Assembly: GCA_016931995.1 (NCBI GenBank)
Contig: JAFGDS010000008.1
Location: 1 to 64,000 of the forward strand
DNA: 64,000 nt
Source of the DNA: Pirellulales bacterium
GTDB lineage: Bacteria; Planctomycetota; Planctomycetia; Pirellulales; Thermoguttaceae
Reading direction: 5' to 3'
Below are positions 12,504 to 18,240 of the stretch, in pieces. Within the stretch, counting starts at the first letter, position 1. Every line of letters starts with the position of its first letter. Below the pieces are notes generated by a model, which made no database searches, was not told the DNA's origin, and saw nothing but the letters and a program-made list of their open reading frames with translations. The position numbers were made by a program, and so were the translations under genes.

Positions 12504-15050
<2,547 letters not shown>

Positions 15051-15087: not shown

Positions 15088-15678
15088 TCAGGCTGCCCTT
15101 CTCGTTTGGACCGGAACCGCATCCGGCTCGAGGGAGGCACGGCGGCTTTCCGCTCGGGCCTCGGCCAGGCATTCGCGCTCCCGGCCGATCTCCAACTCCC
15201 ATTTCCGCGACTCTTCCATCCGCTCCAGCCGATCCAGTTCCTCGTCGGCTTCGTCCCACTGGCCCGTGCGCCTCAGCACGGAGGCCAGCATCAGCCGAAC
15301 GTCCACGTCCCGCGGATTCGCCCGGAGCATCCGACCCAGAAGCCGTTGGGTTTCGTACCAATCCTGTTGCAGGTAATGCTCCACGGCCTGGTCGAAGGCA
15401 TCCGGCTGGACCGCCGACCGAACCCCGCCCGGCTCGCGCCGGATTCGGCTGACGCTGTACACGGCCGATACGAGCCAGACCAGCGCCAACCCCATCCACA
15501 CAATACTACGCACCGGGGGGGTAAACGGTTCCATTTCGTTCCAGACGAGGCTGGTGGCCAAGGCAAGGTTCACCAAAGCGGCAAACCCCACGGCCACAAC
15601 CATCCCCCCCCACGCTCCCCGCTGCCAAACGTGTGGAAGGCCCGGCCACAAAAAAACACCCCACGGTATCCTGCCCAT
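15088..15678 (-). CDS. Membrane protein with C-terminal tetratricopeptide segment
   Basis: A 196-aa protein with two predicted TM helices (GMVVAVGFAALVNLALATSLV and SIVWMGLALVWLVSAVYSV) followed by a TPR-like region (AVEHYLQQDWYETQRLLGRM, then ANPRDVDVRLMLASVLRRTG) and a charged coiled coil. It lies 37 bp upstream of clpC on the same strand, so the two may be co-transcribed. The start is uncertain: ATG 15702 and ATG 15678 are both possible, and CGGAG upstream slightly favours 15678. No function is assigned. A membrane anchor or adaptor for the adjacent ClpC is conceivable but only inferred from position. Confidence 0.68.
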   Translation of the reverse strand: MGRIPWGVFLWPGLPHVWQRGAWGGMVVAVGFAALVNLALATSLVWNEMEPFTPPVRSIVWMGLALVWLVSAVYSVSRIRREPGGVRSAVQPDAFDQAVEHYLQQDWYETQRLLGRMLRANPRDVDVRLMLASVLRRTGQWDEADEELDRLERMEESRKWELEIGRERECLAEARAESRRASLEPDAVPVQTRRAA

Positions 15679-15923
15679 GGCAACGTGCTCCGTATGGACC
15701 ATCCCTGCGGATCGGCCGGTAGTCGGCCGCCAAATTGTAACTCGCGGAAATAGGTGAATCAAGGCAACAAATATAAGGGGTTTAGGAGGTTTGCGTTGCG
15801 CAAGAATGACGGGAAATGCACGAAGAATGGATACCCAAAGCCGGGCGGGCACAGAGGAAACTGATACCCGCCACCAAGCGTCTGAAGGTTGCGACGAACC
15901 AGAAAATACCACTTGAGAGGGGC

Positions 15924-17624
15924 ATGTCTATTGCCAGTACTGCCCATTTGTGGCACATTGATACCATGAATAATGGTTACCCTCCAGGGCCCGCGTTCAC
16001 GGCGGGGGCACAGCGAGCACTGGGACTGGCCGCGGGGTGCGGCGCCGGGCGCGAGCCGGACTGGCTGGACGGGCCCGCGGTGCTGCTGGGCCTCTTGGGC
16101 GAGTCGGAATGCCGCGCCGCGGCCATGCTCGCGCGCCGCGGAATCGACGTCGCGGCTGTCCACCGTCGCTGGCCCGAGCTGACCGATCCGGCCAACCGGA
16201 CACCTTCGCCGCCGGTCCCCGATCCGTCGTGCCCGCCGCCGTGGCGGTTCACTCCCGACGTGGAAGCCTCGCTGCACCTGGCGACCGTTTGGCTGACCGA
16301 TCGCTGTTTTCCGGTCGAGTTGGCCACCGAGCACGTGCTCTTGGGACTCGTCCTGGGCGATCACGCGACGGGTGCATGGCTGAAGGCCCAAGGGTTCACG
16401 CCCGAGGTGATGGACGAGGAGCTCCGCCGTCTTTACGGCGAGCGCGCCGCGCCGCCGTGCGCCGATGGCATCGAATCGATCGAGGAGGATTTCGCCGGAC
16501 GGGAATCGGCCGCGGCGCCGTTTCAACCGGTTGCGCCGGAACCGAACGCCGCCGACGCGGCGCGCAACGCGGATTGGATGGGCGTTCTTCGGGTAATCGA
16601 CGCGGAGGCCAATCGGGCGAGCGAGGGGCTCCGCGTCGTGGAGGACTACGTTCGCTTCGTGCTGGACGACCGCCATCTGACCGAGCGGCTGAAACGACTT
16701 CGCCACGCCCTGAGCGAAGCCCTGACGCACGTGCCCATGGTCCATCGCTTGGCCGCCCGCGACACGCTTGCCGACGTGGGAACAAACGTATCGACGGGCC
16801 GCGAACGGCCGCGGACCGGTTGCCAAGACGTTGTGGCGGCTAATTTCGCCCGGGTGCAGGAGTCGCTGCGGAGCCTCGAGGAGTACGGCAAACTCTTTCC
16901 CGTCGGGGCAACACTGGATCTGGCGGCGCGGATGGAGCAGCTTCGCTACGAGAGCTACACGTTGCACCGCGCCGTCGAGACAATGCGCGCAAACCTGACG
17001 CGGCTGGCCGGGGCGCGGCTCTACGTTCTGATCGAAGGACAAGAGTCGCCCGAGGATTTCGACATCCTGGCGCGAGATCTGGTTCTTGCGGGCGTCGACG
17101 TCCTCCAATTGCGCGACAAGCGGCTGGCCGACCGCGAATTGCTAAGTCGCGCGAGGCTGCTGCGGCAGTTGACCCAGGGCAGCCAGACGCTCTTCGTGAT
17201 GAACGACCGGCCGGATCTGGCCGCGTTGGCCCGGGCCGACGGCGTCCACGTGGGTCAGGAGGAGCTATCGATCAAAGACGTCCGAGCGATCGTCGGGCCG
17301 GAGAGCCTCGTTGGCGTGTCCGTTCACGGCGTCGAGCAGGCCCGCGAGGCCGTGCTCGAAGGGGCGGACTACCTGGGCGTGGGGCCCACGTTCCCGTCGA
17401 AAACCAAGCCGTTCGAGACGTACCCGGGGCCGGACCTGCTCCGCGCGGTGGCCGCCGAGATCCGCTTGCCGGCGTTTGCCGTGGGCGGCATCGACGGCGA
17501 CAATGTTTCGGACGTTTTGGCGACGGGCTTCCGCCGAGTGGCCGTCGGCCGCAGTGTCACCGGCGCCGACAACCCCGCAACCGCCGTCGCCCGATTGCTC
17601 GAACTGCTCGGCCCGCGACCGTAG
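15924..17624 (+). CDS. thiE: Clp_N-like / ThiD2 / thiamine-phosphate synthase fusion
   Basis: A 566-aa fusion. Residues about 25-85 and 108-172 are two Clp_N-like repeats; the second has FTPDVEASLHLA and ATEHVLLGLVLGDHATGAWL, close to the ClpC pattern TEHILLGL. Residues about 219-359 are the ThiD2 domain (VLRVIDAEANRASEGLRVVE, NFARVQESLRSLEEYGKL), a family shown to act as HMP-phosphate kinase. Residues about 362-566 are ThiE, which joins HMP-PP and thiazole-P to thiamine phosphate: LQLRDKRLAD, FVMNDRPDLAALARADGVH, GVGPTFPSKTKPF and FAVGGID are intact. GAGAGGGG precedes ATG 15924; ATG 15966 is the alternative and still keeps both Clp_N-like repeats. No TPP riboswitch was recognised upstream. 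Confidence 0.88.
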   Translation: MSIASTAHLWHIDTMNNGYPPGPAFTAGAQRALGLAAGCGAGREPDWLDGPAVLLGLLGESECRAAAMLARRGIDVAAVHRRWPELTDPANRTPSPPVPDPSCPPPWRFTPDVEASLHLATVWLTDRCFPVELATEHVLLGLVLGDHATGAWLKAQGFTPEVMDEELRRLYGERAAPPCADGIESIEEDFAGRESAAAPFQPVAPEPNAADAARNADWMGVLRVIDAEANRASEGLRVVEDYVRFVLDDRHLTERLKRLRHALSEALTHVPMVHRLAARDTLADVGTNVSTGRERPRTGCQDVVAANFARVQESLRSLEEYGKLFPVGATLDLAARMEQLRYESYTLHRAVETMRANLTRLAGARLYVLIEGQESPEDFDILARDLVLAGVDVLQLRDKRLADRELLSRARLLRQLTQGSQTLFVMNDRPDLAALARADGVHVGQEELSIKDVRAIVGPESLVGVSVHGVEQAREAVLEGADYLGVGPTFPSKTKPFETYPGPDLLRAVAAEIRLPAFAVGGIDGDNVSDVLATGFRRVAVGRSVTGADNPATAVARLLELLGPRP

Positions 17625-17628
17625 AGCG

Positions 17629-18240
17629 TCACAGATCGAATCGGATCGCGCCTTCGTCCATTCCCTTGGCGTCGTTGGCGACCTCGATGCCGAGGATCGT
17701 CTCGTCGTTGAAGCGGGCAGGCACCTTCATCTTGTCGCTGGTGATCTTGACCTTGTACAGCCCGGGGGCCATGCCCGGGGGCGACCCGCCGGGGATCGTC
17801 ATGGACACGTTGCCCCGCTGGTCAGTCGTGCCCTCGGCGGCTTTGACGTTGGGACCGAGGAACGCTTCCGGCTCGAAGACCACCTTCGCGCCAGACAGGG
17901 GTCGGCCCTGATAATTGAACACGCAACTGACCAACATCAAGCCGAGCCTCGAATCCTGCCATTGTTTGATGCGGGCGGTCACCTCCTCGGCGCTGACGCC
18001 CTTGTCGCCGTTCGCGTCGAGCTTGTCGATCGCGGCCTTCAGCGACGGCGCCTTGGCCAGCTCGTCGCCGGCCACCTTGCCGTCCTTGTTCGTGTCGTAC
18101 TGCGCCATCGCCGCTTCTCCGGCCGCGGACGCGTCGATGCTGGGCGGATAGACACGGGAGGGGCGCCGCGAGCATCCGCCGACAGCGGCCAACGTCACCA
18201 CCGCCAGGAGCACAACCGGTATCTTCATGCGAGCGATCAT
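17629..18240 (-). CDS. EF-hand lipoprotein with carboxypeptidase-regulatory-like domain
   Basis: A 203-aa secreted lipoprotein with lipobox LAAVGGC near residue 23. Two EF-hand loops follow, DTNKDGKVAGDE (complete) and DANGDKGVSAEE (slightly irregular), so calcium binding is plausible. The C-terminal half (LVSCVFNYQGRPLSGAKVVF, then TTDQRGNVSMTIPGG and GLYKVKITSD) resembles transthyretin/CarboxypepD_reg beta-sandwich domains common in planctomycete lipoproteins. GGTGG sits 7 bp before the ATG. It converges with the thiE fusion, with 4 bp between stop codons. Specific function is unknown. Confidence 0.8.
   Translation of the reverse strand: MIARMKIPVVLLAVVTLAAVGGCSRRPSRVYPPSIDASAAGEAAMAQYDTNKDGKVAGDELAKAPSLKAAIDKLDANGDKGVSAEEVTARIKQWQDSRLGLMLVSCVFNYQGRPLSGAKVVFEPEAFLGPNVKAAEGTTDQRGNVSMTIPGGSPPGMAPGLYKVKITSDKMKVPARFNDETILGIEVANDAKGMDEGAIRFDL

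Follow-up and report, generated by a model that had tools for sequence, protein, structure and literature searches.

Two described protein families meet in the gene analyzed here. The ThiD2-ThiE family (NCBIfam NF002727) joins an HMP-phosphate kinase domain to a thiamine phosphate synthase domain. ClpC carries an N-domain of two Clp_N repeats followed by AAA+ domains, and according to passages of PMC12583610 this N-domain is the place at which adaptors and marked substrates bind. Proteins that have the Clp N-fold but no ATPase of their own also exist, namely plastid ClpT1 and ClpT2 and mycobacterial ClpC2 (for ClpC2, passages of PMC10030653). ClpC2 is not fused to a metabolic enzyme. We know of no such fusion for ClpT1 or ClpT2. 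As a rare variant, ClpN repeats fused to vWA proteins are described for FtsH ternary conflict systems in passages of PMC7159879, which assign these proteins a conflict-system role.

The gene described here, thiDE, lies in a window of 64,000 nucleotides from a Pirellulales bacterium. It has the same enzyme domains as NF002727, in the same order and above curated cut-offs, but the double Clp_N in front of them lies outside that family. With the ClpC N-domain (6pbs, 2y1r, and 5hbn) it shares the two repeats and the fold over about 140 residues, yet it lacks the AAA+ part. It thus resembles ClpT1, ClpT2, and ClpC2 in having the fold without an ATPase but, unlike ClpC2, has it on a metabolic enzyme. 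Like the vWA proteins it carries Clp_N outside the Clp chaperones, although their partner domains are unrelated to those of thiDE. We found no description of a Clp_N-ThiD2-ThiE fusion in the open-access literature, in agreement with a preliminary description of the locus, made from the sequence, which knew of no such addition.

The double Clp_N domain of thiDE

The features of the locus are collected in Table 1. The open reading frame spans positions 15816-17624 of the forward strand (602 aa). Judged from the sequence, translation is likelier to begin at the ATG at 15966, since most relatives start about four residues ahead of the first FT motif, and a start at 15924 is possible. In the 566-aa protein, Pfam profiles recover Clp_N (24.1 bits), ThiD2 (136.8 bits), and TMP-TENI (170 bits) in that order, so that the one-frame fusion of the preliminary description stands. 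The NF002727 profile covers residues 219-562 of the same protein with 350.6 bits (cut-off, 335). Behind the N-domain, ThiD2 and TMP-TENI are the only Pfam domains above cut-off, and AAA+ domains are absent. No ThiD2 match other than the thiDE product was found in the window's genome. Nor did a search of this genome find a full-length canonical ThiD; it yielded only a kinase match that is partial (44.5 bits). Within the window, no TPP riboswitch or other RNA reached its gathering score. A small convergent protein is encoded 3' of thiDE (17632-18240, reverse strand), with a single EF-hand at 26.7 bits (cut-off, 25.4).

Table 1. Positions of thiDE, its predicted domains, and neighboring genes in the window
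Feature	Position	Strand	Details
clpC, AAA+ chaperone with two canonical Clp_N repeats	12504..15050	-	ORF, Pfam, profile
TPR-like gene between clpC and thiDE	15088..15837	-	uncertain upstream start; recurs in relatives
thiDE, alternative start	15924	+	566 aa
thiDE with Clp N-domain	15966..17624	+	552 aa; ORF and Pfam; start set by relatives' lengths
Clp_N repeat 1, degenerate	15993..16172	+	approximate bounds from model; helices 13-25, 36-45, 50-57, 62-68
Clp_N repeat 2, ATEHVLLGL motif	16239..16439	+	approximate bounds from model; helices 97-112, 121-130, 134-141, 146-157
Linker, mostly disordered by prediction	16440..16589	+	residues 159-200 at pLDDT < 50
ThiD2, HMP-phosphate kinase domain	16590..16970	+	Pfam; sole ThiD2 match found in genome
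ThiE, thiamine phosphate synthase domain	17019..17555	+	residues 352-530; also NF002727

Searched alone, the N-terminal part matches Clp_N (PF02861) at 27.1 bits in two stretches (Pfam cut-off, 20.7). Tested singly, the repeats reach 16.9 and 14.1 bits, both below this cut-off, and are therefore degenerate. Pfam also recovers Clp_N in 15 of the 17 fused members of set A2 at E ≤ 0.01. We built a fused-domain profile from 24 fused N-terminal parts, including that of the window and excluding the ClpC-like row L051. With this profile, both repeats of the window's ClpC are recovered at 55.4 bits (domain E = 2.1e-16), and both repeats of ClpB at 40.1 bits (E = 1.1e-11). The window's N-domain scores 58 against its own ClpC in a pairwise alignment (mean of 25.5 and maximum of 41 over 200 shuffles) and 54 against ClpB (shuffle maximum, 49), so that one pairwise comparison scarcely separates ClpC from ClpB.

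An AlphaFold2 model of the N-domain, with the window and seven relatives as input, contains eight helices (pLDDT, 85; pTM, 0.82). A Foldseek search of the PDB with this model returned 51 matches at E ≤ 0.001, the best 50 of which are Clp/Hsp100 or ClpT chains. The top matches are ClpC N-domains (E = 3.7e-6), and VIA-align superimposes 143 residues of the model on these with a Z as high as 15.4. The full-length model has a pTM of 0.58, which together with the low linker pLDDT is the pattern expected of a tethered domain; the median linker length is 28 aa in 107 fused rows. Pfam, the profile, and the predicted fold agree on the Clp_N domain that the preliminary description had read from motifs, including its two repeats and its ClpC type, and together they show a complete double Clp_N module, as far as sequence and model predict it. 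GC-rich DNA does yield long spurious frames, and other frames are open here too, but a read-through frame upstream of an ordinary ThiD2-ThiE gene is refuted by the homology, the predicted fold, and, as described below, conservation across the class, clean shuffles, and dN/dS below 1. We consider the probability of such an artifact negligible.

Distribution, neighborhood, and natural variants

The thiDE protein was matched in 57 of 60 near-relative genomes, the window's own included. These contain 57 ThiD2 loci, one per genome, and three more loci with ThiE alone. An N-terminal extension of at least 150 aa is present at 34 of the 57 ThiD2 loci, and the other 23 are short. The fused-domain profile recovers every one of these 34 extensions at E < 1e-5, although 23 of the 24 profile rows were drawn from among them, the remaining row being the window.

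We also surveyed 148 genomes of the class as assigned by the search tool, presumably Planctomycetia with Pirellulales as the window's order, many of them drafts, and scored the loci of 134, with genome G181 among the 14 left out of the count. Clp_N is clear (E < 1e-5 against the fused-domain profile) at 97 loci and weak at 6, while 28 loci are short and 3 are extended without a match. The clear matches have a median of 53 bits, and 9 of the 97 fall below 25 bits. Shuffling 125 extensions over 20 rounds produced no match at E < 1e-5 and at most two per round at E < 0.1. Five families outside the window's order account for 89 clear and 6 weak matches among 99 loci: f87 (26/26), f91 (4/4), f88 (27 clear and 3 weak of 31), f21 (30 and 2 of 35), and f89 (2 and 1 of 3). 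Within the window's order presence varies, and the domain is absent from families f16 (0/16) and f7 (0/6). The planctomycete comparison that the preliminary description had proposed thus finds the fusion class-wide, with a 5' part conserved in relatives and a likely translation start well ahead of ThiD2. The domain is nonetheless dispensable for thiamine synthesis, since 31 of the 134 class loci lack it, including all 16 of f16.

A phylum sample comprised 119 genomes, 113 of them outside the class, from which the best 29 loci besides the window were fetched. The five class loci among them have Clp_N (three clear and two weak), and all 24 non-class loci among these best 29 lack it. Long open reading frames occur in several other non-class genomes among the matches listed (e.g., G068, G077, G156, and G172). 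Outside the class, locus L099 of genome G119 has 408 open codons ahead of its ThiD2-ThiE core without a Clp_N match; this stretch is either spurious or an extension of another kind. A tree of ThiD2-ThiE with 90 rows implies at least 15 changes between presence and absence, and its well-supported branches require only two. The distribution suggests, as the simplest history, a single early gain, close to the root of the class, and repeated losses thereafter.

The clpC gene lies 0.9 kb upstream of thiDE in divergent orientation, within the 1 kb given by the preliminary description, and the order clpC, TPR-like gene, thiDE is common to many relatives. Short flanks contain clpC at 29 of the 57 near-relative ThiD2 loci, 16 fused and 13 without the fusion, and clpC also stands beside thiDE in two genomes of a different family, G107 and G128. 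By position, the two genes are adjacent in 6 of 23 class genomes (G000, G051, G188, G181, G107, and G128); in drafts, adjacency can be judged only where both genes share a contig. The flanks of all 24 non-class loci lack clpC. In an N-domain tree with an assumed ClpB root and long branches, the fused clade (99/97) adjoins ClpC. The adjacency is compatible with capture of the domain from the neighboring gene, and clpC, which encodes a related domain, is a possible kind of donor. Separately, four frames consist mainly of Clp_N repeats without an AAA+ part: L284 (G107, 277 aa), L285 (G128, 149 aa), L286 (G183, 175 aa), and L287 (G187, 472 aa). Those placed in the tree cluster with ClpC N-domains.

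Three genomes carry informative variants. In G003 (locus L018), a ThiD2-ThiE gene without Clp_N is directly preceded by a 44-codon remnant of repeat 1, the stop codon of which overlaps the enzyme's own start. If the draft assembly is correct, the domain was lost here by deletion. A six-frame search of the 23 short loci with their short flanks recovered this remnant, the adjoining clpC in many, and two marginal matches (5.5 and 5.8 bits). Within these flanks, a fission into a standalone Clp_N gene was accordingly rejected. In G181 (family f90), Clp_N is joined straight to ThiE in a frame of 418 aa, and the genome has no ThiD2 match but a full-length canonical ThiD (277.8 bits) on another contig. 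As this lineage dropped ThiD2 and kept Clp_N on ThiE, the domain goes with ThiE. Here too clpC lies upstream and divergent, with a TPR-like gene (judged by eye) in between, and the N-domain scores 109 against ClpB and 74 against ClpC in pairwise alignment. In G044 (locus L051), the N-domain is 58-59% identical to ClpC, scores 92.7 bits with Clp_N, and groups with ClpC in the N-domain tree, while the enzyme core sits among ordinary fused relatives (SH-aLRT, 81-94 in a quick tree). The L051 domain is likely a fresh ClpC copy that replaced the older one; we grade this no higher because an AU test did not reject its placement with the fused clade (p = 0.143).

Selection, conserved residues, and the Clp/Mcs machinery

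The dN/dS of Clp_N (NG86, medians taken by hand) ranges from 0.03 to 0.57 with a median of about 0.17, being defined in 16 of 18 fused pairs, compared with about 0.08 for ThiD2 (17 pairs) and 0.10 for ThiE (16 pairs). By these sequence comparisons, the Clp_N part is under purifying selection. Three pairs reach 0.40-0.57; this part changes more quickly than the two enzyme domains and, by branch length, much more quickly than the N-domain of ClpC itself.

We compared residues across 124 fused, 31 ClpC, and 16 ClpB rows, the fused rows having been picked by profile match, which favors conservation. Passages of PMC12583610 assign E32 of ClpC to the pArg1 site and R9 and K85 to resting-state contacts, which serve self-inhibition. 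All three are mostly missing from the fused proteins. E32 is found in 100% of the ClpC rows and in at most 7% of the fused rows, where it falls outside the top five residues and A (19%), P (14%), and V (11%) are commonest; L051 retains it. R9 drops from 100% in ClpC to at most 1%, and K85 drops from 97% to 7% (R, 34%), while T7 is retained as T or S. The equivalent of E106 (pArg2) is E in 79% and D in 15% of the fused rows, but it is not diagnostic of the ClpC type, since ClpB shares this glutamate (16/16). The fused family has hallmarks of its own that are unlike ClpC, given here in alignment-column numbers: R12 (98%), E43 (91%), and R45 (77%). A docking domain whose specificity has shifted fits best with a retained fold and an altered surface.

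These data also bear on whether the domain is a passenger, that is, an old accident, perhaps from the adjacent clpC, which is harmless or aids solubility and is deleted at times. Its repeated absence inside the window's order, the G003 remnant, its fast evolution, and the presence of clpC at loci with and without the fusion would all be accommodated. Near-constant presence in the five other class families, purifying selection, family-specific conserved residues, and retention of the domain when ThiD2 was lost argue against it, and we judge a passenger somewhat unlikely.

These planctomycetes, too, seem to encode the phospho-arginine marking system known from Firmicutes. McsB scores 470 bits in the window's genome (cut-off, 385), ClpS is encoded there, and at L068:687-2421 a McsA-like gene (126 bits, below the cut-off of 210) adjoins McsB. 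PF00217 (McsB) occurs in 56 of the 60 near genomes, including all 44 with completeness of 90% or more and contamination of 5% or less, and its presence therefore does not track the fusion. Since McsB, a McsA-like protein, and ClpS are encoded, a link through a Clp adaptor or McsB docking is possible.

The preliminary description suggested that the enzyme is handed to the Clp protease in a regulated way or that it recruits adaptors. Such a link could serve regulated degradation, with the domain taking the enzyme to ClpC-ClpP via shared adaptors or McsB-marked proteins and proteolysis switching thiamine synthesis off. All the parts, ClpC included, are encoded, and Arabidopsis THIC, of the thiamin pathway, is enriched in a CLPC1 trap according to passages of PMC8889267. 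However, the fused rows have mostly lost E32, R9, and K85, the largely kept E106 equivalent is also found in ClpB, and near-universal McsB does not follow the fusion. We regard degradation by this route as unlikely.

A decoy function would have the domain soak up peptides or phage proteins that target the ClpC N-domain, in the manner of mycobacterial ClpC2 and cyclomarin. We take the cyclomarin contacts F2 and F80 to be columns 3 and 82 of our residue alignment. On this presumed mapping their equivalents are not conserved in the fused rows, and even the ClpC of these bacteria lacks F at the F80 position. Partial ClpC homologs can act as sponges (passages of PMC10030653), but it would be strange to find one on an enzyme, and we consider a decoy very improbable.

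A proposed docking domain for ThiE

We favor, with a probability of about one half, a predicted ThiD2-ThiE enzyme with a flexibly tethered, re-specialized docking domain that serves ThiE. A ClpC-related N-domain would precede ThiD2-ThiE on a flexible linker and act as a docking module in which the Clp N-fold is retained and the specificity altered. It may hold a partner protein beside ThiE, possibly a Clp/Mcs adaptor or else another regulator, and the docked partner would tune the amount, placement, or activity of the enzyme. Because the ClpC N-domain binds adaptors and substrates, we infer that the domain of thiDE is a receptor more than a degradation tag. It would be neither a catalytic part nor such a tag in itself, and it would serve ThiE rather than ThiD2, given the lineage that lost ThiD2 and kept Clp_N on ThiE. 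The 31 class loci without the domain, its evolution at a faster rate than the enzyme domains and ClpC's N-domain, and the closer pairwise match of the G181 domain to ClpB speak against this model. A broader version of this docking model is possible but tentative: a fixed connection, throughout the class, between the Clp/Mcs protein-quality-control network and vitamin B1 synthesis, in which a ClpC N-domain was captured, possibly from the neighboring clpC, re-specialized to dock a regulator on ThiE, and replaced by a newer ClpC copy in at least one lineage (G044, locus L051).

Clp N-domains are known as a protease intake and an antibiotic target, and here one is found, class-wide, on a housekeeping enzyme. 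This makes thiDE a test bed for Clp N-domain function without an ATPase, and naturally occurring forms that carry the domain, lack it, have it on ThiE alone, or bear a ClpC-like copy open the question to comparative testing. The fusion may couple protein quality control directly to cofactor supply.
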